Below are positions 32,300 to 46,307 of a DNA stretch of 46,319 nucleotides, piece by piece. The DNA is from Planctomycetota bacterium (lineage in GTDB: Bacteria; Planctomycetota; Phycisphaerae; Sedimentisphaerales; Anaerohalosphaeraceae). The notes under the pieces are model-generated. The model was not told the origin of the DNA, ran no database searches, and saw nothing but the letters and a program-made list of their open reading frames with translations. The stretch covers positions 1-46,319 of the forward strand of contig VRUI01000035.1 of NCBI GenBank assembly GCA_019456225.1, read 5' to 3'. The position numbers and the translations under genes were made by a program. Every line of letters begins with the position of its first letter. Within the stretch, counting starts at the first letter, position 1.

Positions 32300-35200
32300 T
32301 TATTCCGTGTTGGATATCGAAGACCCGCCTTTGGACGCTTTGTATGTGATTGTCTTTTCATCCGTTTCGCAGACAATGCGGAAACCAACATCCCACACCG
32401 GCTGCCAGTACTGGTAACTCAAACGGTAAGTATCAATGCGATCGGCCGGCACCTTAATACCCTTGGCTCCGCGAACGACCTTGCGGCCTTTCTTGTTGCC
32501 CGTGTCGCGGCCATCTGTCGACTTGTACGGATACGGCTGATACGTGCTCCGGGTCCACTCGGCACCGCCTTTGGCAACTCCTGCGCCCCATACGTCTGAA
32601 CCGCTCTTACTGGCTGCAGCACCGGCGCGTCCGGCATATTCCCACTGGGCTTCGGTCGGCAGCGAAAATCGCTTGCCGGTCTTTTCTGAAAGCCAATCGC
32701 AAAAGGCCATCGCGCGTTCCCACGAAACACGAATCACACGCTGGTCAGGCTTATTGAGAGGGTTGCCGCGTCTGGATTGGTCCTTGCCCCGCATATCAAG
32801 ATACCCGCTGTCATGCCTGGCGTCAAACAGAGCATACTCCTTGTTCAGGACCGCACGCCTGGCGATCCAGAACGGCTTATCGATCTTCACGGCGCATACC
32901 GGTTGTTCGTCACCGGCTCCGGCAGCATCGCCCATCACAAATTCGCCGGCCGGTATACGAACCATGTCAAGCTCAAGCGTCCGGCCATCCATATCAATAG
33001 TGACCTTCCGGACGCTGCCGGTTCCCTGACGTTTCTTCGCCTCAGCATCGTCAAACGGCCAGCCGGCAGCATTGACCGCAATAGCTTTTACCGGCTTGGG
33101 GGCTTCAGGGATAATCGGCTCGATTTTCTTGTTATCCAGTACCGGTACGACCTCATAGTCGGCGTCGATGCCCGCATACAGTTTGCGAAGTTCAATGCGG
33201 CGCTCACGCTGACCGGCCGGAATTTTGCGGAATTCCCCCCAGGTCCCGTAGTATGGAACATTCAGATCGATCCATGTATAGAGGCGCTCATAAGCCTCGC
33301 GATCAGGCTTAACGCCATGATGCCCTTTTTTGAGCATCTGGATCAACGGACTCGTGTCGGCGTCATATTCCGTTGGCTGATACATGTGATAGTCGCCCTC
33401 TGGTCCCGGGCGACGCACGTGCGCCTGCAATATGTTGTAAGCCGGGCTAAAGCCGCCTCCGCCGTTATCACGCATATCAACAAGCTTGCGTCCGTTCTTA
33501 CCCGCAGTGCCGTTGTGACAACCGACGCAGTACTTATCCAACGCCGGCTGCACCTCGCGCCGAAAACTGAATCCGCGCGCCGGGCCATACCACGGTTTAA
33601 TCTTTTGCGGTCTCTTTCTTGAAGCCGTCGTTAGCATTGGTCGAGGCGCTTTTTTATTGTCCTCGTGGCAACCGACACAGGAGAGATTCTCACCGGGCAT
33701 GGCAACGAACCAGCTCCGCATAAGCTGGAGCGATTTGCCCTCGGCGTCCAGGGGCTGCAAAGCAATCGGCGTGTTGGCAGGCACATGGAACGATGCCGAC
33801 CCGTCAGGCTCGACATTAACCGTGCCCAAAATCCGGTGCACATCCCACGGCCCTTCCCTGCCGATGTATGTATGGTTGGCCAGTTTGTGATAGCCATAAT
33901 CAAACGCAAACAGACGCATCTTCTTGACCGTGCCGCGCGGGACACGTTTCAAACCGTCGCCGGTGTAGATGTCGGACATATATACGACCGCGTCCTTGCG
34001 GCTGAGGTCAATTCGCTCTGGAATAACCGGCGGCCGCTTTGTTTTGCGGAACGGAACGGGCTCCAGCATGGAAATACCAGGCTCGACGCAGATTGGCAGC
34101 ATGTTATCGAATACGTCGACGAGGTAGATTCCCCAGTTACCGCCGAGGTTGCATGAGGCCAGGAAATACTTCGAGCTAAGCGGATAGGGATGAAGAAAAC
34201 GCGGCGACGATCCGTTGACCAGCTGATCACGGATGATGGGCTCTACCTTCTTGCCGTACCCGGGAATTCGCTGAACAACACCGTCAGCCTCGAATTGACC
34301 TTTTGCCGGATCAAAGATGATCAACTCACCCTCTCTCGCCACGCCGTGATGACCGGACACAATACCCGTAAACTGGGTCGGATGATTCGGAATTGCCCGT
34401 GCGTAAAAGGTCGAGTTGGGCCAGTATGAATTACTGCCGTAGTAAGATCGCTGGTTCGTACCGTCAGGATTCATGGTCATCACTATGCGTGTAAAATAGT
34501 GAGGCGTGTCGCTGTATTCCCAGCGAGTAAAGAGCACCCGGCCGTCGTTCATGATCGACGGGTACCAGTCATGGTCCTGATCAAAGCAGAGCTGACGAAC
34601 GCCGGTTCCGTCAGGATTCATGACATAGAGATTGGCAACCTGGCTGTTACCCCCGACACAAGGGACACCCTGAAAACAAGCCGTTGAATCAAATATAATC
34701 TTCTCGCTCGGCAGGTAGCAAGCATCGTAGTTATCAACACCCTCTATCGTTTTGGTTACCTGACGCAAACCCGTACCGTCGGCATTGATCTCAAAAACTT
34801 CATACCGCCTGTTCGGCAACTGGGAGGAGAAGATCATCTTCTTCCCATCCCAATGCAGATCAACGTCGCCCACGAATGCTCCGGGTTTCGGGCGGTAGAG
34901 CGTCGTAAGTTTGCCGTCAGGACTCACAGGTGAAAGCACGGCAATCTCATTGTTGAACGGTCCGCGTTTGGAACAATTGCCCACCCAGTTCTGCGGCATA
35001 CCCGGCTTGCCGTGACGCTTGACAATCAATAGCTTATCGAAATCCAGCAACGGATTTGCCAGCAAAGCTTCCTGGCGAAACGCAACTAACTCCGTAGCCA
35101 TCGACCTTAGTTTTGCTTCGTCGGCATCGTTAAGAATCTCTTCGATTTCCTTGATGCGCTTGAGATACTTAGCGGGATACGTCTCCGGAAAACTCATGGA

Positions 35201-36163
35201 AAGATCCTCTATGGCCAGTCGCAGGGCCTGCAGGTTTAATTGCGCCAACTGCGCCAACGCCTCCTGGATAGTCTTAGCGCGATAGTACATCTCTCGAACA
35301 GCATTGAGGTCCTTTTGGGATCCGATGTTCCTGGCGAGCGTTTTTATCTTCTTGCCCGCTAAACTGCCCTTGGATGGACCGGCGTATCGCCCGGCAAGAC
35401 CGGCAAGATCACCTTTCTTCCAGTCCGCCATCCAGATATTGTCGGCCCGTTCCCATGCCATCTGTTTCCGGGCCGCAGCCTCATCGAAATCTCGCGCAAC
35501 CAGATCCCAGAGCCCTTCCTTCATCACAGTCCTGATATCTTTCTTTCCACCGGCTGTTTTCGATGTCGAGAAATACCAGCCGCTGCCTCCGCCATTATTC
35601 CATATCTTGATAAGAAGATGGTTCTCACCCTCCTTGAGCACCAACTTGGCCTTGTCCTGGTTTGCCGCGGCCCCACGACTTGCTTTGTTCGAAATGATCT
35701 TCTTATTGTTGAGCCACACCGCCAAACCGTCATCGCTGCCGTAATAGCTCATAACAGTCTGCGGGCGGCTTGCAATGATCTTGCGATAGAAATACTTCGC
35801 CGAATTACCCGGCAGTCTGAGTCCGTGAACTTTTCCGTCGACAACTTTGATCCGCTTCCATTTCCGCTTGCCGTAGCTGCTGGAAAGGTCAATCTTCTTC
35901 TCCGGGCCAAAAACTTTATTAAACGTGTCTTTATCACTGAACGGCCCCATCTCAAACCACGTTCCGAATTGCGGTTTCGCCGCCGTCTTTGGCTTGGACG
36001 GCTTGTTCAAATGCACAACCAACGCCTCACGCGAAGCCTGCATTGACTCCTGCCAGGAGCCTTTCCTGATGTAATACTCAGGATCTTTGCAAAATGCATT
36101 GCTGCTGCAAACAGATAAAACAACCGACAATAAGAGTAAAATAGTAACAGTCAATTTTCTCAC
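32300..36163 (-). CDS. Exported HzsA-like dihaem cytochrome fused to an FGE-like domain
   Basis: The 1287-residue protein starts at GTG 36163 with AAAGGA upstream and a signal peptide. It has a PA14/jelly-roll-like N-terminal region (about 60-220), the NPLLDFDKLLIVKRHG segment shared with the 931-residue protein, and a beta-propeller. Two haem motifs follow, C829-VGCH and C879-VGCH. Residues about 1060-1270 form a formylglycine-generating-enzyme-like (SUMF1) domain with MVRIPAGEFVMGD, RVSWERAMAFCDWLSEKTGKRF and LPTEAQWEYAGRAG. The RGGS-C segment that carries the FGE catalytic cysteines is replaced by VVRGAKGIKVPADR, so genuine sulfatase activation is unlikely. A binding role is more plausible. 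Confidence 0.82.
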   Translation of the reverse strand: MRKLTVTILLLLSVVLSVCSSNAFCKDPEYYIRKGSWQESMQASREALVVHLNKPSKPKTAAKPQFGTWFEMGPFSDKDTFNKVFGPEKKIDLSSSYGKRKWKRIKVVDGKVHGLRLPGNSAKYFYRKIIASRPQTVMSYYGSDDGLAVWLNNKKIISNKASRGAAANQDKAKLVLKEGENHLLIKIWNNGGGSGWYFSTSKTAGGKKDIRTVMKEGLWDLVARDFDEAAARKQMAWERADNIWMADWKKGDLAGLAGRYAGPSKGSLAGKKIKTLARNIGSQKDLNAVREMYYRAKTIQEALAQLAQLNLQALRLAIEDLSMSFPETYPAKYLKRIKEIEEILNDADEAKLRSMATELVAFRQEALLANPLLDFDKLLIVKRHGKPGMPQNWVGNCSKRGPFNNEIAVLSPVSPDGKLTTLYRPKPGAFVGDVDLHWDGKKMIFSSQLPNRRYEVFEINADGTGLRQVTKTIEGVDNYDACYLPSEKIIFDSTACFQGVPCVGGNSQVANLYVMNPDGTGVRQLCFDQDHDWYPSIMNDGRVLFTRWEYSDTPHYFTRIVMTMNPDGTNQRSYYGSNSYWPNSTFYARAIPNHPTQFTGIVSGHHGVAREGELIIFDPAKGQFEADGVVQRIPGYGKKVEPIIRDQLVNGSSPRFLHPYPLSSKYFLASCNLGGNWGIYLVDVFDNMLPICVEPGISMLEPVPFRKTKRPPVIPERIDLSRKDAVVYMSDIYTGDGLKRVPRGTVKKMRLFAFDYGYHKLANHTYIGREGPWDVHRILGTVNVEPDGSASFHVPANTPIALQPLDAEGKSLQLMRSWFVAMPGENLSCVGCHEDNKKAPRPMLTTASRKRPQKIKPWYGPARGFSFRREVQPALDKYCVGCHNGTAGKNGRKLVDMRDNGGGGFSPAYNILQAHVRRPGPEGDYHMYQPTEYDADTSPLIQMLKKGHHGVKPDREAYERLYTWIDLNVPYYGTWGEFRKIPAGQRERRIELRKLYAGIDADYEVVPVLDNKKIEPIIPEAPKPVKAIAVNAAGWPFDDAEAKKRQGTGSVRKVTIDMDGRTLELDMVRIPAGEFVMGDAAGAGDEQPVCAVKIDKPFWIARRAVLNKEYALFDARHDSGYLDMRGKDQSRRGNPLNKPDQRVIRVSWERAMAFCDWLSEKTGKRFSLPTEAQWEYAGRAGAAASKSGSDVWGAGVAKGGAEWTRSTYQPYPYKSTDGRDTGNKKGRKVVRGAKGIKVPADRIDTYRLSYQYWQPVWDVGFRIVCETDEKTITYKASKGGSSISNTE

Positions 36164-36523: not shown

Positions 36524-36877
36524 AGGTGATCAGGCCAAAGCCGCAAAGCCTTGAAAATGAGCGATAACGCTTACCGAAAATCGCTTCCGATAAGGATTCG
36601 ACAATTTACACATTAATACCAGCTAATGCAAGACAATTAAGTAAAAAAATATTATATTCGTACCAATAAGCAGCCGGCACACCGGAAAGACACCTTTTAC
36701 AGAGTCACCAAACTAACCTGAAACAGCCCGCATACTAAGTAAATGTATGCAATTAAACGGCAGCAGTTTATTAATAAAACAGCCTCGGCCGCGTTGAGCG
36801 GAGCGAAATCCGCCGAAGGCGGAAATCCTTTAATAATCAATAATCAATCTCAAACTGGCCGACAGGTCAGTTTGACT
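36524..36877. other. Intergenic region between the operon end and tRNA-Ser
   Basis: These 354 bases contain no gene I can support. The left part must hold the tRNA promoter. The right part (36779-36875) contains the 3'-flank version of the operon repeat: AACAGCCTCGGCCGC, a TCCGCC-GAA-GGCGGA hairpin at 36809-36823, and the AAACTG palindrome at 36849-36875. Confidence 0.5.
36849..36875 (-). repeat. AAACTG palindrome, copy 2, directly after the operon's last stop
   Basis: An 11-bp stem of TCAAACTGGCC and GGTCAGTTTGA with a GACA loop lies two bases beyond the TAG stop of the GATase gene. It could act as a transcript-end hairpin, although no T-run follows. The core is identical to copy 3 (44335-44358). 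Confidence 0.6.
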
Positions 36878-39478
36878 CTACTCGGTCGGGTCTACAACTG
36901 CCGGTGCCTTGCCAACTGCGACTTTTCTGTATACGTCTTCCGGCGAGCGTCTTACCCCGTCAACCGTCAGCAGGTCCCTTTCCACCGATACCCCGAACAA
37001 TTCTTCGTTGCTCTTAAGATACGGCAGGATCAGGTGCCAGTCGGCCTCGGTCACCGAGGCGAAATGCCCGCCGTTGAGCTGCTCGGTCACCAGTTTACTA
37101 TGCGGGTCCCGCACATAGATCGCACCGCCCGAAGCCAGCGAAAAGAGATTCGAGCCCGGGTATGGCGACGCCAATGGAATAACATTGCCTTTGTCGTCAA
37201 ACTCTACGCCATTTAGAACCACGAACCCCCCGCCGTTTAGCGGGTCGCCGGCCATGAATGACTCTGCAAGAAAATCAAGGCAAGTCCCGTTGATCACCAC
37301 GCGTGGTTTTCCAACGGCGTTGATAAGCGGACGCCCCGCACCGTTACCCTGAATATAAACTTCGCCGCCCTTGGCACCGTACATAAATGCCTGTCCGACA
37401 TCGCCATAGATAACGAGTTTTCCGGCTTTCATGATCTGGCCGAGCTGGTCCTGCGCGTTATCATGGATAAAAATTTCCATCCCGTCAATACCCGAAGCGA
37501 TATAGTCGCCAGATGCACCGTAAACATCTATCCTTACGCCGGTGGTACCGGGACCAAGTCCGCAGCCGTGGAAACGCTGACCGCGAAGACCGTAAACAAT
37601 AAATTTTTTCCAGCCGGCATGAAATGCAGCGACGATTACCTTGGCATCGCATTCTTCGCCTTCAGGCGGGAACTTGGCAGCGTCGATAACCAGCGTTTCT
37701 TCCCGGCCGGCCGGCGCCCTGACATCATTGCGAGTATCCCAGTCGACCAGCCGTGCGTGTGCATCGGAGTTAGCTGTTATCGAAGGACACGAACCGAGGA
37801 TAGCATCAATTGTTTCACGCACAACCTGCAGGACGACAGAACGCTTCTTGTCGCCGCAATCAAAGCGGCGATTATTGATAAGCGAAAGTAATTCCAGTGC
37901 CCAATTAAACTGAATTCGTCCCTTTGAGGCTATTTCCTGAATCTTTGCCGCTGCGGCCTGGAGTGTTAGGAAATCCCAACTTGCAATGTCTCGGGCGATC
38001 TGTTTGAAAAGGCCTTTTGCATCACTTACAACCGCTGATGCTTCAAACTTTTCACAGACAGCGGCATCTGCTTTGGGGTTAGCGGTCAAGTCGATATTCC
38101 AGCTGCCGCCGGGGCATTCAATCGCCTTGCCGAATTTATCTGCACATGACATTTTACCGTTTTCGCTGGAGGCATTTTCGATAGTAAAGGAGAATGCTCC
38201 GCCGTCTGTACTGCTGCCGCCGCGAGCGTTCCAGTATTTATCGGCGACCGGACGGAAACGCGGATCTTCCTGGCTTAGCGAATGAAGCGTCGCGTCGATC
38301 GCCTGTTTTTCCGAACCGATAAGCCCAATGCTGACGTCGCCCTCCTGAAGCGCGAATACCTGCGGCCGAAGCATTGCTGTATCCGTAATGCCGAGCAGTT
38401 GCAGCGTATCGGTATCCGGGTTGCTTCTTGCAATAATAAAGAACCACGGGCCGTCCGGCGATGCATGCATATGCGAGGCCTGGATGGCTCGGTATATCTT
38501 TTTCTTTTTTTCCGGCAGGTTATCAAAGTCGATCTCTGCCGTCGGAGCCAGTGCCTCGATAACATATTCAACCGGATAACCCCATGTACGATGCCACAGA
38601 TCAAAGAGCAGCACCGATACTTCCGTGTCGGTCAAAAACAGCGGCATAACATTATGCTGATGGAGGTATTTCGAGATACTATAATAGTTCGCAAAGTCGC
38701 CATTATGCACAAGAGCTTCGTTCATACCGATAAACGGATGTGCCCCAGCCGGATGCCAGACGCGGCCCTTGGTGGGGTAACGCTGATGAGCGATCCACAC
38801 GTTGGCCTTAAAATCTTCAAGCTGGTAATACTGCACGACCTGCTCGGCGAAGCCAACAACCTTATAGATCATCAGGTTGCGTGCATGGCTAAGAACAAAA
38901 GCACGTTTTTCGCCAAGAGAGGCGTAGTAAGTTTTGTTAAAAGTAAAGCTGTTCTGGTAAATAAATTCATCTTCGACAACCCGTGACGGCTGGTCGGTAA
39001 GATTATTTTCTTCGGCAAACTGGTTAAGCTTGTCGCTTTTTACACGAACGAAATACCGCACGATCTCCGGCGGACAAACTTCCAGCCCGACAGAACGAAA
39101 ATCATCGACATGCCCCTGTTGTTCCTTATGGCTGACGTCGAGATTTTCGGTGACGTACTTTTCAACTTCGTCGGCAGCGGTTGAATCCAGCAGAGCGATC
39201 TGCAGGATATAGCTTTCTCGAAGGGTCTTTGCGTCAACACCAAGCTGGCCGGGAACCAGACCCGCTGCAGCAATACCGCCGCCTTTACCGTTACCGCGGT
39301 TCTGCATCTGGTACGACGCCTCAAAGATATTCCTTCCGCAGACGGGAACGCTAGCTGCAAAACCTACAACGCCGCAACCGCCCTCTTGTACCACATCTTC
39401 ATCGTACAGGTCGTCCGGGTTGATACCGGCTATGATCTTTTTTCTCGAATCAAAAATCTTCTGTGCGTAATCATTCAT
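36878..39478 (-). CDS. Glutamate-synthase-like protein: class II GATase plus GXGXG domain
   Basis: The 866-residue protein starts with a short propeptide and then C35-GVVGF, the expected N-terminal nucleophile of class II glutamine amidotransferases after cleavage at GG-C. The substrate pocket motifs MQNRGNGKGGG and ALVHNGDFANY are present. After a variable middle, residues about 635-800 form the GXGXG beta-helix of glutamate synthase (GLGPGTTGVRIDVYGASGDY, YGDVGQAFMYGAKGG). The FMN domain that normally sits between these two is encoded by the next gene upstream. It should release ammonia from glutamine for a partner flavoprotein. It is the last gene of a five-gene operon. Confidence 0.85.
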   Translation of the reverse strand: MNDYAQKIFDSRKKIIAGINPDDLYDEDVVQEGGCGVVGFAASVPVCGRNIFEASYQMQNRGNGKGGGIAAAGLVPGQLGVDAKTLRESYILQIALLDSTAADEVEKYVTENLDVSHKEQQGHVDDFRSVGLEVCPPEIVRYFVRVKSDKLNQFAEENNLTDQPSRVVEDEFIYQNSFTFNKTYYASLGEKRAFVLSHARNLMIYKVVGFAEQVVQYYQLEDFKANVWIAHQRYPTKGRVWHPAGAHPFIGMNEALVHNGDFANYYSISKYLHQHNVMPLFLTDTEVSVLLFDLWHRTWGYPVEYVIEALAPTAEIDFDNLPEKKKKIYRAIQASHMHASPDGPWFFIIARSNPDTDTLQLLGITDTAMLRPQVFALQEGDVSIGLIGSEKQAIDATLHSLSQEDPRFRPVADKYWNARGGSSTDGGAFSFTIENASSENGKMSCADKFGKAIECPGGSWNIDLTANPKADAAVCEKFEASAVVSDAKGLFKQIARDIASWDFLTLQAAAAKIQEIASKGRIQFNWALELLSLINNRRFDCGDKKRSVVLQVVRETIDAILGSCPSITANSDAHARLVDWDTRNDVRAPAGREETLVIDAAKFPPEGEECDAKVIVAAFHAGWKKFIVYGLRGQRFHGCGLGPGTTGVRIDVYGASGDYIASGIDGMEIFIHDNAQDQLGQIMKAGKLVIYGDVGQAFMYGAKGGEVYIQGNGAGRPLINAVGKPRVVINGTCLDFLAESFMAGDPLNGGGFVVLNGVEFDDKGNVIPLASPYPGSNLFSLASGGAIYVRDPHSKLVTEQLNGGHFASVTEADWHLILPYLKSNEELFGVSVERDLLTVDGVRRSPEDVYRKVAVGKAPAVVDPTE

Positions 39479-39500
39479 CGTATTATTAAACCTTTAATTA

Positions 39501-39561
39501 GCCTCGCCAAAGGCGATTCCAAAATTAGTAATTCGTAATTCGTAATTCGTAATTCGTAATT
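39501..39561. repeat. Operon intergenic repeat: GC hairpin and ATTCGTA heptamers (copy 2)
   Basis: A short hairpin TCGCC-AAA-GGCGA (39504-39516) is followed by one ATTAGTA and four ATTCGTA units (39524-39558). This lies between the FMN protein stop and the GATase start. A further perfect palindrome (ATCAGCCC-TC-GGGCTGAT, 39563-39580) covers the stop codon of the FMN gene. Confidence 0.75.
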
Positions 39562-39563
39562 GA

Positions 39564-42521
39564 TCAGCCCTCGGGCTGATTATCGTAGTCCAGGTGTTTC
39601 AGCAAATCACTTCGACCGGTCAGTTCCGTGATCGACTTCAATCCCAGACGCCAGCAGATATACTGTAGCTGTTTTGCCCACGAGTGGAAAATATTTTTCA
39701 GCCGCTGGGTCGCCCACTCACCGTCGTACATCTTCGAAAGTTCCGGATCGGTCGTCGCGATTCCTCTAGGGCAACCGCGTCCGCTTTCGCATGCACCGCA
39801 GCGGATGCACTCCAGTGCGATAACTTCAACCGTTCCGATCACAACGCCGTCTGCACCGAGTGCGATAGTCTTAGCCAGGTCCCACGCACTTCTCACACCG
39901 CCGGAAGCGATTAGCGTGATCTTATCGCGTACACCTTCGGCTGTCAGGAAGTTATGAACCTTGCCCACTGCGTACTCGATCGGCATTGCGATATTTTTCT
40001 TGGCGATATCGGGAGCAGCACCTGTCCCGCCGTAGCTGCCGTCCAGGTGGATGATATGTGCGCCGGCGTAGTAACTTCCGACCGCTACCATATCAACGTC
40101 GCTTGCCCCGGACACCTTAACCGAAACCAGTGTTTCCGGGTTGATCTCTTTGATCCAGTCAACGTGTTTCTTATGGTCCTCAATCGAGTAAACCGAGTGG
40201 AACGGGAACGGTGAAAACAGCGGGGTGCCCAGAACGGCTTCACGCATCTCCGCCACAGCCGGCGTATTCTTATCGCCAAGCAGGTGACCGCCGAGGCCGG
40301 GTTTTGCACCCTGGGCATATTTGAACTCTACGATCCGAACGCGCTGAATAGTTTCTTCGCGAACACCGAACAGGCCCGTCGCGACCTGCGTGATAACATT
40401 ATCGCCAAATTCCATGAGCTCGGCAGGGAATCCGCCTTCGCCTGAGCATGTAAACGAATTGAACGCCTTATACGCTTTTGCACGGGCAAGCATCGTATCA
40501 AGCGAGATCGATCCGTAACTCATACCGCCGCCATAGAATGGAATCCCGATCGGTACTTCCGGTCTGCCGTCGTTACTCTTGTTTAGCGTAATGCCAAGGT
40601 CGACATCTTCCGGCTTAAATGACGTATCCGGAACTTCGTCCGGGAAAACGATGTCGATCCTGTCGAAACCGCCGCCTGATTCGCCCTTCTTATACTCAAA
40701 GTCTCTCTCTGACGGCAATCCGTCTTCGGCTTGCTGCCAGGTACTTGCCAGCAATTCCTGTGTCCATCGAGGATCGCCGAAAGCCTGCCACATTGGATCC
40801 GGACCAACACGCAGTGCGTCTGCCGGACAACTGTTTACGCAGAATCTGCCCTCTTCCCTGCAAGCCTTAGAGCCGCGGCAATATTCACTTCTTGGAGCGA
40901 GTAATCTCTTGCCGGCCTTAACGTGAACGCCATACTGGCACACCTCGGCGCATTTGCCGCATGATATACAGTCTGTCGTTCTTGAAACTTTATAGATCGC
41001 CAGCGAATTTCTAAACCTGCTCGGACATTTCGTGACAAACTTTTCGTCGACCGGCGGATAATCTTTTAGGATCTGTGCTTCTTCGGCCGGGTCCTTAACT
41101 ACTGGCTGGGCCGCTGCTTCGAGCGATTCTTCCAGCGTCCTGGTTCGGGTCCCAAAGAATGGAGAGAGGTTGTCTTTTTCGAGATCGTCGAAGAACATCA
41201 CCCTTCCAAGCTCGCCGCGAAGACGGCGCACCTCGCGAAGTCCCATCGCACCCATTACTTCGATAAGCTGGTTGTGCCACGACCCGACCAGATTCTTGAT
41301 CCGGTTTGCGCCCCATTCAGACGGCGCGTTATCTATGTCAACAGGACACTCTTTCCTGTCCGAACAATCCTTACAGAGTCTACAGCCCATGGAAACGAGC
41401 AATGCCCGGTTAACGGCGACACCGTCAGCTCCGCAGGCGATGACTTTTGGCAGATGTTCGGCTGTCGCCATAGCGCCGCTGATTACCAACGACGTCCGAT
41501 CTCTCATTGAATTGTCCAGAAGTGCAAAATGAACTTCCTTGACCAGCTCAATAATAAAATCGTCTTTCTTTTCGCCAAATCCCATGCCGTCACCGGTTGC
41601 CTGAAGGATGATCATTCCAACTCCGCCGGCGGTCAGATCTACCGCTCTTTGAGCGGCGTTTTCGTCCAGCGGCAGGCGAATTGAAGGGATAACACCCGGG
41701 TTAACCGCAGCGATCTTTTCGATTGTTGCCAGAACGTCATCGGCCCACTGAAGCTCTACTATTGTTGCACTTTGAACATCGTTTACATCGTCGGTCGCCG
41801 GATCAAAACGAACTATAAGATGCTCGGCGTGGCCGGCGAGAATTCCCTTGGAGTCTATTAGTGAAGCAACGGCAAAAGTGCGTGCTTCTACAGCCGCCGA
41901 AGCGATTGCCTCTTTAACCGAATCACTGACAAACTTATTATCCGGAAGATCCAGAATGATCGGGATCGGAATCTCGGTAAACGACGGGTCGGCAGATAAC
42001 ATATTGCCGTCTTTGTCGAATTCGAGTCGCCTGTGGCGGACACCAAGCTCTATCACCGTGCTGATGTATTCCCTGCCGTGGATGCCGTCCCTTGTCGGGC
42101 GAACGATCTCCGACATATCTGTCCACATCGAGTCAAAACCGCTGCTTGCAAAAAGACCGCGATAACCGGCACCCGATACCGGGATCTTGCCGTTGTCGGA
42201 TACCTTCCAGATATTGGTGATAAGCTCCGGAGTCCAGTAATCGTTCCCGAGTTTGGCGTATTGCGGATTCGGCATGCGGAACAGGATATTCTTTTTGCAT
42301 TCCTGAACGCATCGCATGCAGTTGATGCAGTCGACATCGGCGGTGTCGACCACCTGCGGAGTGTCGAACTTTCGGTTTTTGTAGACGTCGTATACGCATG
42401 AGTCGCGCTTGATGCACTGCATGCAGCCCAGACATCCGTCGTTTTCTATCGCACTAAACTTTGGAACCGGAAAAAATCTCGCTTCTGTAGGTTTAACTTC
42501 CAAATGATATTTCGCTGGCAT
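39564..42521 (-). CDS. Tandem-duplicated FMN/ferredoxin glutamate-synthase-like protein
   Basis: The 985-residue protein consists of two related halves. Each starts with a ferredoxin-like module (CLGCMQCIKRDSCVYDVY and CINCMRCVQECKKN; later CISCGKCAEVCQYG and CRGSKACREEGRFCVNSCP). Each half ends with the glutamate-synthase cysteine motif (MGCRLCKDCSDRKECP near residue 379; CIRCGACESGRGCP near 907). The second half has the full FMN/2-oxoglutarate motifs QGAKPGLGG, SYGGTGAAP and SGGVRSAWDLAKTIALGADGV. The first half keeps the GADGV-type barrel end but lacks QGAKPG and GGTG, so it is probably catalytically degenerate. Ferredoxin- or FeS-driven glutamate formation or another flavin-based electron transfer is the likely role. 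Confidence 0.82.
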   Translation of the reverse strand: MPAKYHLEVKPTEARFFPVPKFSAIENDGCLGCMQCIKRDSCVYDVYKNRKFDTPQVVDTADVDCINCMRCVQECKKNILFRMPNPQYAKLGNDYWTPELITNIWKVSDNGKIPVSGAGYRGLFASSGFDSMWTDMSEIVRPTRDGIHGREYISTVIELGVRHRRLEFDKDGNMLSADPSFTEIPIPIILDLPDNKFVSDSVKEAIASAAVEARTFAVASLIDSKGILAGHAEHLIVRFDPATDDVNDVQSATIVELQWADDVLATIEKIAAVNPGVIPSIRLPLDENAAQRAVDLTAGGVGMIILQATGDGMGFGEKKDDFIIELVKEVHFALLDNSMRDRTSLVISGAMATAEHLPKVIACGADGVAVNRALLVSMGCRLCKDCSDRKECPVDIDNAPSEWGANRIKNLVGSWHNQLIEVMGAMGLREVRRLRGELGRVMFFDDLEKDNLSPFFGTRTRTLEESLEAAAQPVVKDPAEEAQILKDYPPVDEKFVTKCPSRFRNSLAIYKVSRTTDCISCGKCAEVCQYGVHVKAGKRLLAPRSEYCRGSKACREEGRFCVNSCPADALRVGPDPMWQAFGDPRWTQELLASTWQQAEDGLPSERDFEYKKGESGGGFDRIDIVFPDEVPDTSFKPEDVDLGITLNKSNDGRPEVPIGIPFYGGGMSYGSISLDTMLARAKAYKAFNSFTCSGEGGFPAELMEFGDNVITQVATGLFGVREETIQRVRIVEFKYAQGAKPGLGGHLLGDKNTPAVAEMREAVLGTPLFSPFPFHSVYSIEDHKKHVDWIKEINPETLVSVKVSGASDVDMVAVGSYYAGAHIIHLDGSYGGTGAAPDIAKKNIAMPIEYAVGKVHNFLTAEGVRDKITLIASGGVRSAWDLAKTIALGADGVVIGTVEVIALECIRCGACESGRGCPRGIATTDPELSKMYDGEWATQRLKNIFHSWAKQLQYICWRLGLKSITELTGRSDLLKHLDYDNQPEG

Positions 42522-42544
42522 AATATTCTCACAAATAATAATAT

Positions 42545-42596
42545 CAGCCTCGGCCGTCAGGCCGAAACCTCAATTCGTAATTCGTAATTCGTAATT
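42545..42596. repeat. Operon intergenic repeat: GC hairpin and ATTCGTA heptamers (copy 3)
   Basis: CAGCCTCGGCC with the hairpin TCGGCC-GTCA-GGCCGA (42550-42565) is followed by three ATTCGTA units (42573-42593) plus ATT. It lies between the MetF stop and the FMN protein start. Confidence 0.75.
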
Positions 42597-42610
42597 AATA
42601 ATTATCAGTT

Positions 42611-43543
42611 CTATGGACGAGGTAAAAGGCCTGCCTCATTAATGATGTCCGGCAAAAGGCCTTCCGCTTCGATGGCCTGTAGATGTACACCCTTTACGCC
42701 GCTGAGATTTTTGACGGCATCGACTAATTCCAGGGTGATCTTGATGCCTTCAACCTTAGGATGTTGTGCGTCTTTCATTCTCTGGATCATCTCGTCCGGA
42801 ACTTCAATACCGGGGACATTTGCGTTCATGTAATTGAGCATACCGGCAGACCGTGGAACGATGATACCGGGTAGAATCGCGGCCTTTTCGGTCAGTCCCA
42901 TATCTTCTGCTCTTCGCATTGCTTCGGCGAAACGCTTGATGTCATAGACAGCCTGGGTCTGGATAAAGTTTGCACCGGCATCGATCTTCTTTTTAAGACG
43001 AATCGTACGGAACTTCTCCGGAGGTCCAAATGGCGTCCATGCCGCACCGATGAAGAACGGAGCTGCAGGAGAGATGGGGTCTCCGCTTTCCTGAATACCT
43101 TTGCCAAGTCCCTTGACTATTGAGATCAGCTGGATCGAATCTATGTCGAAAACATTTTTTGCACCTGGGTGGCCGTTTAGCTTGCCGCCTGCACCGGCCG
43201 ACTGATGGTCGCCGGAAAGACACAGAACGTTTCTAAGACCAAGTGCATGTGCCCCGAGAAGATCGGATTGGATAGCAATGCGGTTGCGGTCGCGACAGAC
43301 GATCTGCATGATAGGCTCAAGACCCTGATCGTAAAGTATCTTAGAGGCGGCAATACTCGACATGCGAACAACAGCTGTCTGGTTGTCGGTTACATTATAA
43401 GCATCGGCAAAGCCCTTAAGAACAGCTGCTTTTTCTTTAACTTCCCCGGCGTCCGGGCCTTTTGGCGGGCCGACTTCGGCTGTTACTGCAAAAACACCGG
43501 ATGCAAGTGTATACTCTAAATTACTTCCTGATAGATTCTTCAT
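42611..43543 (-). CDS. metF: Methylene-tetrahydrofolate reductase, MetF subunit
   Basis: The 310-residue protein is a TIM-barrel flavoprotein of the MetF family, which reduces methylene-tetrahydrofolate to methyl-tetrahydrofolate. Visible landmarks are VTAEVGPPKGPD near the start, YNVTDNQ, VLCLSGDHQSAG, FFIGAAWTPFG, ANFIQTQAVYDIKRF and ILPGIIVPRSAGM. The length is normal. The start codon overlaps the MetV stop (TAATG), which indicates translational coupling to MetV. Together they match the two-subunit MetVF type found in acetogens and other anaerobes. The product is cytoplasmic. Confidence 0.88.
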   Translation of the reverse strand: MKNLSGSNLEYTLASGVFAVTAEVGPPKGPDAGEVKEKAAVLKGFADAYNVTDNQTAVVRMSSIAASKILYDQGLEPIMQIVCRDRNRIAIQSDLLGAHALGLRNVLCLSGDHQSAGAGGKLNGHPGAKNVFDIDSIQLISIVKGLGKGIQESGDPISPAAPFFIGAAWTPFGPPEKFRTIRLKKKIDAGANFIQTQAVYDIKRFAEAMRRAEDMGLTEKAAILPGIIVPRSAGMLNYMNANVPGIEVPDEMIQRMKDAQHPKVEGIKITLELVDAVKNLSGVKGVHLQAIEAEGLLPDIINEAGLLPRP

Positions 43544-44211
43544 TATCTAAGATCCTCCCGTATTACACGTTTCGGTCCGCCATGACGGGAATTGGACCAG
43601 TTCTTTGACTTCTTGACTTCCGCGAGCGAATCGAGTTGTCCTCGCTCGTCCCCGCGTTCGACAATAAGGTTCCAGATGCAGTCGGTATCTTCGGATACTT
43701 CGCATTTGCCGTTACCCCGTGTTCCGCCGCAAGGACCGTTGAGAAGGCTCTTTGCGCAACGGGCGATCGGACACAAACCGAAAGTTTCGCCAAGAACACA
43801 GTCACCGCATGCGGCACATCGACCGGCCCACAGACCCGCTTCTTCGCGAATAGTAAGAGCCGAAGTATTAACCCCCGGATATACCGGGATCGGATCGAAG
43901 AGATCGGCCATAGCCTGAACACCGATACCGCAAGCCAGAGACATTACCGCGTCAACGTCGTGACCCTTTTCGATAAGCTCTTCGACAAACTCAAATTCGC
44001 ACTGCTTTTCCAGCGTAGCTGTAATAATCTCAACCGAGCAGCCCTGCTTCTTTAAAGCCATGCTAAGAAGCGGTGCAAGAGTTTCTACCTCTTTTTCGCC
44101 GCCGGCGGCACATTCGGCTACGCAAGTTGCGCATCCAACCAAGAGTACCTTCTTGTGAGCTTTAAGTTTCTCAACCAGCTCATCAATAGGTTTCCATTCT
44201 GCAAAAATCAC
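43543..44211 (-). CDS. metV: MetV-like iron-sulfur/zinc subunit of methylene-THF reductase
   Basis: The start is taken as GTG 44211, because AGGAG lies seven bases upstream. This gives 222 residues. A longer frame reaches 44247 without such a site. The N-terminal half is a Rossmann-like domain (VLLVGCATCVAEC). The C-terminal part is rich in cysteine: RCAACGDCVLGETFGLCPIARC, NGPCGGTRGNGKCEVSEDTDC. This is the MTHFR C-terminal Fe-S/zinc domain that defines MetV. In acetogens MetV joins MetF and passes electrons to it. Its stop overlaps the MetF start. Confidence 0.85.
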   Translation of the reverse strand: MIFAEWKPIDELVEKLKAHKKVLLVGCATCVAECAAGGEKEVETLAPLLSMALKKQGCSVEIITATLEKQCEFEFVEELIEKGHDVDAVMSLACGIGVQAMADLFDPIPVYPGVNTSALTIREEAGLWAGRCAACGDCVLGETFGLCPIARCAKSLLNGPCGGTRGNGKCEVSEDTDCIWNLIVERGDERGQLDSLAEVKKSKNWSNSRHGGPKRVIREDLR

Positions 44212-44280
44212 TGCATGTCTCCTATTTTTAATGTAAAAAATTGGCAATTAAAATTTCGTATAGCAACTGTTTTTCATAAA

Positions 44281-44358
44281 ACAGCCTCGGCCGCAAGGCC
44301 GAATCCTAAATTCGTAATTCGTAATTCGTAATTCCAAACTGGCCGACAGGTCAGTTTG
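44281..44358. repeat. Operon intergenic repeat: GC hairpin, heptamers and AAACTG palindrome (copy 4)
   Basis: ACAGCCTCGGCC with the hairpin TCGGCC-GCAA-GGCCGA (44287-44302), three ATTCGTA units (44310-44330) and the AAACTG palindrome (44335-44358) occur in a row. The palindrome overlaps the end of the MvhD-like gene and supplies its TGA stop. Confidence 0.75.
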
Positions 44359-44752
44359 AGTTAGCTGCTTCTGCTCGAGCCTTGGCGATTGCTATAAGCT
44401 CATCCGGGGTCTGTGAAAGTTTTCGGCTTATGCCTACACGCTGGGGGTTATCGCCGATACTTTCCAGCAAGCCGCGGACATATTCGATTCGTTTTTCCGC
44501 GCGGCGTGATCCGATGAGAAAACTGCACCCCTTTTCCGGGCACGCAACTATCTCAACAGCATCTGCGCCGGATTCGAGAAATCGCAGAATATATGGAACT
44601 TCGACCTTGCTCGAGCACGGTAACATTATCGCCTGGACATTGATGCCTTCTGCGTCCTGTGCCCAGTCGGTAGATTTTGCACCTTCGGAAATGGCCTGCT
44701 GACAATACAGCACAACCACTTTCGTAACATCGGTGGACTGTTGATTACTCAT
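44351..44752 (-). CDS. MvhD-like hydrogenase iron-sulfur (delta) subunit
   Basis: The 133-residue protein matches MvhD/HdrD-associated delta subunits, small proteins that carry a [2Fe-2S] cluster and pass electrons into heterodisulfide-reductase-type or MetVF complexes. Cysteines are C17 (VVVLYCQQ), C46 (MLPCSSKVEV), C71 and C76 (ACPEKGCSF), followed by RRAEKRIEYVRGLL. The usual CNWC pair at the N-terminus is reduced to one cysteine, so four remain. GGAAGG lies just before the ATG. It is the first gene of the operon, 139 bases upstream of MetV. No HdrABC or hydrogenase genes are in the window. Confidence 0.82.
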   Translation of the reverse strand: MSNQQSTDVTKVVVLYCQQAISEGAKSTDWAQDAEGINVQAIMLPCSSKVEVPYILRFLESGADAVEIVACPEKGCSFLIGSRRAEKRIEYVRGLLESIGDNPQRVGISRKLSQTPDELIAIAKARAEAANSN

Positions 44753-45095
44753 ATAAACCTTCCAAAACTAAACCGCATGTTTTTAACAGCGGTCCTTGAT
44801 TAACCTTTTTCCTTATTCATAACGATAATATTGTCACCAGGACTATTATTGCAATATTGTAGGGGATAACATTGATTATTGCAACATATTTGTTAATAAA
44901 AATTCTATGTCAGTGACAACCAGCACTAAAATAACAGGGCAATAATATCAACAAGACCTCATATAAAGGCTTACTAAGAATAGACTTATACAATATTAGG
45001 CATGCTGTTTGCCGATATTTAAAAAATAAGCTTGCAATACCACACAATAATGTTACAATTATGTCACATTGCGAAAATATGAAGGAATCCTAAGA
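44753..45095. other. Divergent control region of the MetVF operon and the GAF-Fis regulator
   Basis: This AT-rich 343-base region separates two divergent transcription units. It contains ATTATTGCAA twice as a direct repeat (44845-44854 and 44875-44884), exactly 30 bases apart, which is three helical turns. This is a plausible operator for the neighbouring regulator. I see no clear sigma54 -24/-12 element and no gene. Confidence 0.5.
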
Positions 45096-45914
45096 ATGAC
45101 AAAAAAAAACATACAATGGCAAAATGACAAAGTCCATGCCGCCCAGTATGCACAGCAGCTTGAAATTCTTAACAAGATTAGCCGGACACTTACATGCAGG
45201 GCACACATTAAAGAAGCTTTTAGCAGTATTCTGGACTTAATGGACGGAGAACTCGGCCTCAATAGAGGAACGATCACGCTTCTTGCTCCGGACGATAACA
45301 AAATCAGCATTGAATCTGTACACGGCCTTTCAAAAGAGAAGAGCCAGCTGATAACATATCGCCTGGGAGAAGGTGTAACCGGTAAAGTAGTTGAAACCGG
45401 CAAGGCAATGATCATACCCAAAGTCTCTCAGGAACCATTGTTTTTGAATCGTTTCGAACGATGGAACATCACAAAAGAAGACTTAAGCTTCATTTGCGTA
45501 CCGATTTCTGTCGGCAGCGAAGTAATTGGAACACTTTCTGTTGACAAGCCATATCATCACGCAGCATTACTTGATGATGATGCGCGGGTTTTAAATATTA
45601 TTTCGGGCATAATAGCAATTGTTTTTAAGACTCACCGCGATGCCGCCATAGAACGGCAGCTGTTTGAAGATGAGACCCAACGGCTATATGCTCAACTGAA
45701 AGACAAAGAGCACAGTAAAAAAATAACTGGAAGCGGTTCGCTAAACGAAAGAACTCAACTCTTTGAACGAAATATAATAATTGATGTTCTTAAAAATCAT
45801 AACGGCAACATTACCGCAGTTGCCAGGGACTTGCAGACTACCGCAAGAATAATACGATACAAAGTTAAGGGTTTATCAATAGATCCTATACAATATTTCA
45901 GAAAAAGGAAGTAA
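45096..45914 (+). CDS. GAF-domain regulator with Fis-type DNA-binding tail, no AAA+ domain
   Basis: The ATG at 45096 has GGA in position; a TTG nine codons upstream is possible. The 272-residue protein has a GAF domain at about residues 20-180 (MDGELGLNRGTITLLAPDDN, LGEGVTGKVVETGKAMIIPKVSQEPLF), very like that of NifA. A short linker leads to a Fis-type helix-turn-helix (NIIIDVLKNHNGNITAVARDL, residues about 225-265). NifA-type regulators have a sigma54-activating AAA+ domain between these parts, and here it is absent. It probably binds DNA and responds to a small ligand or redox signal, but cannot itself drive sigma54 polymerase. It may control the divergent MetVF operon, which is an inference. 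Confidence 0.8.
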   Translation: MTKKNIQWQNDKVHAAQYAQQLEILNKISRTLTCRAHIKEAFSSILDLMDGELGLNRGTITLLAPDDNKISIESVHGLSKEKSQLITYRLGEGVTGKVVETGKAMIIPKVSQEPLFLNRFERWNITKEDLSFICVPISVGSEVIGTLSVDKPYHHAALLDDDARVLNIISGIIAIVFKTHRDAAIERQLFEDETQRLYAQLKDKEHSKKITGSGSLNERTQLFERNIIIDVLKNHNGNITAVARDLQTTARIIRYKVKGLSIDPIQYFRKRK

Positions 45915-45917
45915 ATC

Positions 45918-46307
45918 ATGGCAGCATGGGCGAGTACGGGACTACAGGGTCTTGATAAAATTCTTTGTGATTTAAAAAAAGGCGACAATGTTGTTTGGCA
46001 GGTTGACAGCGCAGAAGACTATAACCGTTTTGTTACCCCTTACGTTGAAAAAGCCCTGGAAGATGGACGAAACATTGTATATATAAGATTCGCCCAACAT
46101 GCCCCGCTTATCGAAAACCACCCCGATATTACAGTATATCAGCTTGATGCAAAAAGTGGTTTCGAAAGTTTTTCAACGCAGGTCCATTCCATAATCTCAA
46201 CGGAAGGAATCGGGGCCTATTATGTTTTCGATTGCCTTTCTGGGGAGTGTTCATTTAACTGTGTAAATGGCCTTAACGATTTTTGGCAGATTACACTTCT
46301 GCCTTGA
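45918..46307 (+). CDS. RecA/KaiC-like N-terminal piece, probably truncated or frameshifted at the edge
   Basis: The 129-residue frame begins MAAWASTGLQGLDKILCDLKKGDNVVWQVD, which resembles the N-terminal domain of larger PEP/pyruvate-binding proteins of related anaerobes. It then runs to AYYVFDCLSGECSFN and ends ITLLP-stop a few bases before the window edge. In those proteins the domain is followed by a PPDK/PEP-synthase-like part. The ending after DCLS does not look like the continuation of that domain, so a frameshift (real or sequencing) near 46240 is likely. It starts three bases after the regulator stop and is surely co-transcribed with it. Confidence 0.55.
   Translation: MAAWASTGLQGLDKILCDLKKGDNVVWQVDSAEDYNRFVTPYVEKALEDGRNIVYIRFAQHAPLIENHPDITVYQLDAKSGFESFSTQVHSIISTEGIGAYYVFDCLSGECSFNCVNGLNDFWQITLLP

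Follow-up and report, generated by a model that had tools for sequence, protein, structure and literature searches.

A split glutamate synthase linked by gene order to MvhD, MetV and MetF: a candidate route from methyl-tetrahydrofolate to glutamate in bacteria

The DNA analysed here is a whole contig of 46,319 bp (hereafter the window) from a 4.45-Mb genome that is 96% complete; at the locus of interest its nearest named relatives are Planctomycetota. An operon of five genes in the window encodes an MvhD-like adaptor, MetV, MetF and two large chains of 985 and 866 aa, and between them the two large chains contain the full domain set of a glutamate synthase (GltS) alpha subunit, newly split. 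A sequence-only reading of the window had proposed that MvhD-MetVF is coupled to a split glutamate synthase; this coupling is supported by the same gene order being conserved in many phyla. We propose, with our confidence evenly balanced, that the operon encodes a two-chain glutamate synthase that dispenses with GltD and takes its electrons through an MvhD-MetV-MetF input module. A further proposal, which we hold tentatively and a little short of that balance, is that of a glutamate synthase driven by methyl-tetrahydrofolate (methyl-THF): one complex would oxidise methyl-THF for ammonia assimilation, within a family whose dehydrogenase modules are exchangeable (MvhD-MetVF, MvhD alone or a fused 2-hydroxyacid dehydrogenase). 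The genes, domains, conserved residues and conserved linkage are observed directly; the physical complex, the electron path and its direction are inferred.

Results

Two large chains with the domains of one alpha subunit

The C-terminal half of the 985-aa chain aligns to the flavin mononucleotide (FMN)/synthase domain of GltB, a (beta/alpha)8 domain with 2-oxoglutarate/FMN signature residues, and retains E903, K972, R992 and E1013 as well as three cluster cysteines (GltS residues are numbered as in Synechocystis, counted along the alignment). The N-terminal half is related to this barrel but has diverged from it. In an AlphaFold2 (AF2) model of the chain (predicted local distance difference test, pLDDT, 85; predicted template modelling score, pTM, 0.87), residues 91-985 superpose on GltB 448-1192, comprising the central and FMN domains, with a Z score of 31.4 over 627 aligned residues at 3.4 Å; this and the other structure models are of single chains without cofactors. 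In a structure search with the model all high-ranking hits were glutamate synthases or further TIM-barrel enzymes, with residues 1-90 barely covered. The chain holds 24 cysteines in six 4-Cys sets (Table 1), which are kept in 33-36 of the 36 alignment rows that cover them. Its N-terminal ferredoxin domain is weakly similar to that of HdrA (E 0.039), which we take as a lead only.

The 866-aa chain carries a glutaminase of the N-terminal nucleophile (Ntn) type, with an invariant Cys35 in EGGCGVVG behind a variable leader. The class II glutaminase motifs EGGCGVVG, RYPTKG, HNGD and TDTE are invariant among about 30 relatives, and the AF2 model (pLDDT 83) matches GltB, PurF and GlmS in Foldseek. 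The domain is accordingly predicted to be a PurF-type glutaminase whose Cys nucleophile follows a propeptide. With the GXGXG domain of this chain and the GltB-like central domain of the other, the alpha-subunit set is complete. NADPH-dependent GltS (GltBD) has GltD encoded alongside the alpha subunit, and the operon encodes none; the built-in ferredoxin domains would stand in for the two clusters that GltD brings to GltBD.

Distribution of the core and its neighbours

We refer to the 985-aa and 866-aa glutamate synthase chains as the core. A scan of GTDB contigs yielded more than 535 relatives of the N-terminal half, the closest 80 of which were kept, so that this set is biased toward the window. 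Among these best 80 of more than 535 loci, 48 have both MetV and MetF beside the core and eight have one of the two, while 19 have MvhD only (10 of these cut by a contig end), one has a GlcD-type dehydrogenase and four are cut. They span about ten phyla, including Planctomycetota, Desulfobacterota, Chloroflexota, Verrucomicrobiota, Nitrospirota, Fibrobacterota and Actinomycetota. A less biased sample, 198 Desulfobacterota genomes drawn at random, contains 55 carriers of the core (three of them read from loci L070, L071 and L102). MetV and/or MetF accompany it in 36/55 (both in 29, one in seven); 14 carriers have MvhD only, three have GlcD and two were left unassigned. These censuses count related genomes; the metagenome-assembled genomes (MAGs) among them are incomplete, contig ends cut some neighbourhoods, and the phylum names of some MAGs are NCBI labels. 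The recurrence of the neighbourhood exceeds chance, both in the named loci (48/80) and in the random Desulfobacterota carriers (29/55). The core has a sparse, patchy distribution within Planctomycetota (7/294 sampled genomes) and was not found in other sampled members of the family, order and class of the window genome, which points to horizontal transfer.

Carriers differ in what occupies the slot upstream of the core: MvhD-MetVF, MvhD alone, or a 2-hydroxyacid dehydrogenase of the lactate/glycolate type (GlcD) with flavin adenine dinucleotide (FAD) and iron-sulfur (FeS) clusters. The simplest common reading of such a slot is that it houses the electron donor. In six further genomes GlcD, the N-terminal half, the FMN half, the glutaminase and GXGXG are fused in one chain of ~2,530 aa. 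This chain is a single open reading frame (ORF; L267:1966-9552, also L268-L272) comprising the FAD-linked 2-hydroxyacid dehydrogenase, ferredoxins, both barrels, glutaminase and GXGXG; since the glutaminase Cys is internal, cleavage would be required, or else the glutaminase would be inactive. Four loci (L229, L231, L232 and L235) have GlnA-MvhD-MetV-core operons with MetV but without MetF, and MetV may there act as an electron carrier with no catalytic partner nearby. A 1,154-aa ORF in L074 was considered as a fusion of MvhD to the 985-aa chain and ruled out, as MvhD lies in another frame.

In Desulfobacterota, glutamine synthetase (GlnA, GS), PII, Amt, GlnD or GlnE lie within the stretch read at 27/58 loci. 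Among 50 other carrier genomes, seven have a canonical GltB of ~1,500 aa and about five another short FMN-type relative; in ~38 a search for another glutamate synthase large subunit found none, the MAGs being incomplete. The operon is therefore probably the working glutamate synthase of most of these carriers. These observations bear on the possibility that the large chains are an electron-transfer or bifurcating flavoprotein that reuses glutamate synthase parts, with MetVF as the real catalytic output. The unusual load of six 4-Cys sets would suit such a protein, as would the second glutamate synthase of the window genome described below. The strict conservation of the glutaminase and synthase signatures, the GS/PII/Amt neighbours at core loci and the lack of another large subunit in most carriers all speak against it, and we regard it as highly improbable.

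Linkage between MetVF and the core

MetVF and the glutamate synthase might be separate enzymes that share an operon since anaerobes with the Wood-Ljungdahl pathway need both for biosynthesis. The window genome has this pathway (acetyl-CoA synthase lies on another contig, C90), and MetV is also frequent among Desulfobacterota that lack the core (101/143); core carriers have it in 54/55 (p 4e-6, related genomes not being independent). The history of the linkage fits mere co-regulation poorly. A tree of 118 MetF rows requires about six changes of the label "beside the core", at least three of which supported branches make unavoidable; shuffled labels require 38. The label falls on two large clades and several single rows, and the window MetF belongs to a clade of 23 rows from several phyla, all of them core-linked. 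Gene order differs as well, MetVF lying mostly upstream of the core and downstream in L084 and L085, so that the linkage seems to have arisen several times independently. In 18 genomes with two MetF copies, distances of the FMN half correlate strongly with those of the linked MetF (Spearman 0.78) and far less with those of the second, mostly Hdr-linked copy (0.32). Moreover, the operon offers its MvhD electron adaptor no other partner. Co-regulation alone is, in our judgement, unlikely.

Related systems in the same genome

The sequence-only reading noted that neither HdrABC nor GltD is present in the window, which holds for the complete contig. It does not hold for the genome, where both HdrA and GltD are found. 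One contig (C87) has the gene order HdrA-MvhD-HdrC-HdrB-MetV-MetF, the arrangement of HdrABC-MvhD-MetVF whose Hdr genes are missing beside MvhD-MetVF in the window. Its HdrA (L033:4543-9003, 1,486 aa) contains an inserted GltD-like domain, and the locus possibly encodes an Hdr-type methylene-THF reductase linked to NAD(P)H. Such inserts have been reported for type III HdrA (PMC12054007) and for the HdrL protein of Desulfobacterium autotrophicum (PMC2702500). Another contig (C46; L279) encodes a canonical GltB of about 1,520 aa and GltD, with a 705-aa glutamine synthetase, PII and two Amt as neighbours. Two different glutamate synthases thus coexist in this genome, the operon being the second system there. 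Glutamate dehydrogenase of family PF00208 was not detected in the window genome.

The idea that the FeS/FMN protein replaces HdrABC as electron hub stands in part: built-in ferredoxin domains are present where MvhD would dock, but HdrABC is not replaced across the organism, which retains both the C87 locus and canonical GltBD. Cores without MetVF and MetVF beside HdrABC, which the same reading had named as grounds for rejection, both occur. We do not count the coupling as refuted, because the core pairs with other donor modules and the linked MetF co-evolves with it.

Genes of the locus

All five ORFs lie on the minus strand with successive gaps of 103, 0 (a 1-bp overlap), 89 and 85 bp, and the ORFs, strand and Pfam families (Table 1) agree with the single operon of MvhD-like, MetV, MetF, FeS/FMN and GATase-GXGXG genes read from the sequence. 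The closest solved chains to the MvhD-like protein are MvhD of Hdr complexes, and its four cysteines for a [2Fe-2S] cluster are invariant across 17 aligned relatives. MetF of the MTHFR family and MetV with the DUF5981 FeS/Zn region, both above the Pfam cut-off, identify a MetVF-type methylene-THF reductase. The listed start of MetV is TTG; a GTG at codon 13 would yield 222 aa, the usual length in relatives. No relatives of MetV with solved structures were found at E<=0.01.

Table 1. Operon genes, domains of the 985-aa chain and the adjacent regulator
Feature	Position	Strand	Pfam match or cysteine content
MvhD-like adaptor, 133 aa	44351..44752	-	FlpD/MvhD 4.9e-19
MetV, FeS/Zn subunit of MetVF-type methylene-THF reductase	43543..44247	-	DUF5981 (MetV C-terminus) 4.5e-32
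MetF, flavin subunit of methylene-THF reductase, 310 aa	42611..43543	-	MTHFR 1.4e-34
FeS/FMN chain, 985 aa	39564..42521	-	Glu_synthase 5.5e-102, several Fer4
985-aa chain, ferredoxin domain	residues 1-90		two 4-Cys sets
985-aa chain, equivalent of GltB central domain	residues 91-460		third 4-Cys set at 380-392
985-aa chain, second ferredoxin domain	residues 510-575		two 4-Cys sets
985-aa chain, FMN/synthase domain	residues 600-985		sixth 4-Cys set at 905-917
GATase-GXGXG chain, 866 aa	36878..39478	-	GATase_6 2.8e-06, GXGXG 2.4e-12
GAF-HTH_8 regulator, divergent from MvhD	45069..45914	+	Pfam assignment

The divergent GAF-HTH_8 protein is the probable local regulator of the operon, and GAF-sigma54-HTH_8 proteins adjoin the core in other genomes (L054, L071, L072, L080, L083 and L086). 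Repeats occupy the operon gaps (39496-39561, 42545-42596, 44282-44333 and 36768-36875), in the form of tandem AATTCGT heptamers beside GC palindromes (CGGCCGC/GGCCGA), together with a TCAAACTGGCCGACAGGTCAGTTTGA palindrome. The heptamer is also present on a further contig of the genome (C11; L280) and not in the loci of relatives. At the end of the contig, a 129-aa ORF (45918-46307) has matches in the N-terminal portion of PPDK_N proteins of 860-930 aa near the core in L051 and L103; it also matches L067, and relatives of the PPDK_N-type protein lie near the core in L225, L253 and L262. Elsewhere in the window, at 32300-36163, a 1,287-aa protein combines a match to the middle domain of hydrazine synthase alpha (7e-30) with an FGE-sulfatase domain.

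Discussion

In the mechanism that we propose, MetF would oxidise methyl-THF to methylene-THF (E0' about -200 mV), and the electrons would pass from MetV through the [2Fe-2S] cluster of MvhD and the ferredoxin domains of the 985-aa chain to FMN. The 866-aa chain would free ammonia from glutamine, which with 2-oxoglutarate would give 2-iminoglutarate, to be reduced at FMN to glutamate. Nitrogen assimilation could in this way use electrons of medium potential, which are too weak to reduce NAD(P) or ferredoxin. In known complexes MvhD relays electrons between a dehydrogenase and HdrA. The methylene-THF/methyl-THF couple lies at -200 mV (PMC9430772, PMC8760232), the FMN of GltS at -240 mV and its 3Fe-4S cluster at -280 mV, or -190 mV with 2-oxoglutarate (PMC8097209). 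A couple at -200 mV fits an FMN at -240 mV. The potential for making glutamate from 2-oxoglutarate is near -0.13 V, and the reaction is more favourable with glutamine. On these potentials methyl-THF oxidation with glutamate synthesis is downhill under standard conditions; the reverse coupling is not.

The sequence-only reading had instead pictured one-carbon reduction sharing electrons with glutamate formation. We find methyl-THF oxidation feeding glutamate the likelier direction, and the earlier picture survives in a parallel arrangement, which we consider rather unlikely: MvhD would supply the core with electrons of external origin, from ferredoxin, HdrA, or a hydrogenase or formate dehydrogenase, and these would serve MetVF in reducing methylene-THF as well as the synthesis of glutamate. 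Such a scheme agrees with the pairing of the core with MvhD alone in 14/55 Desulfobacterota carriers, with HdrA or HdrBC genes following the core in seven loci (L220, L223, L224, L226, L234, L240 and L245), and with acetogen MetVF, which normally reduces methylene-THF from a donor that is still debated (PMC8760232). Against it, GlcD-type dehydrogenases take the same position upstream of the core and are fused to it in six genomes; these would donate electrons, favouring a donor slot.

Several observations weigh against the operon as a glutamate synthase fed by MvhD-MetV-MetF. Q978 of GltS is replaced by His in the 985-aa chain, and no sequence feature indicates the direction of the electrons. 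The canonical GltBD beside GS/PII/Amt rules out the operon as the only glutamate synthase of the window genome, and the window operon has no adjoining nitrogen genes. Finally, some carriers have MetV without MetF or the converse, and others MvhD only, so MetVF is not obligatory for the core.

For organisms with the Wood-Ljungdahl pathway, the acceptor of electrons from methyl-THF oxidation and, in the other direction, the donor to MetVF are open questions (PMC8760232, PMC6895022, PMC9430772). A widespread operon of MetVF and glutamate synthase suggests a concrete partner for MetVF. If our proposal is true, electrons pass directly between one-carbon and nitrogen metabolism, and glutamate synthase serves as a platform on which other dehydrogenases can take the place of the NADPH module. 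In the open-access literature, as far as its text could be consulted, MvhD or MetVF occur with glutamate synthase as incidental co-mentions only and the operon is not described, in line with the suggestion that the system was undescribed. Glutamate synthase and MetVF are each already known; as far as we found, their pairing and the exchangeable input are new.

Compared with GltBD (A. brasilense, PDB 1ea0/6s6x), the window system has the same glutaminase, central, FMN and GXGXG domains and the same catalytic residues, and glutamate chemistry would be expected of it. It differs in being split and permuted into two chains (central with FMN, glutaminase with GXGXG), in lacking GltD, and in adding two ferredoxin domains, extra 4-Cys sets and the linkage to MvhD-MetVF. 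The archaeal/bacterial split glutamate synthase and GlxBCD/MgsABC (N-methylglutamate synthase) likewise have glutamate synthase domains on separate genes, there three genes with one domain each and, to our knowledge, without MvhD/MetVF. Putative F420-dependent glutamate synthase clusters of anaerobic methanotrophic (ANME) archaea (PMC9012536) also pair the subunits with an alternative electron-input protein, theirs being FrhB/F420 and ours MvhD-MetVF. Finally, the operon resembles that of HdrABC-MvhD-MetVF, the type IV methylene-THF reductase of Moorella thermoacetica and Sporomusa ovata (PMC9430772), in combining MvhD, MetV and MetF with an FeS flavoprotein hub, whereas its hub is a glutamate synthase and its MetF belongs to a different clade from the genome's own Hdr-linked MetF.

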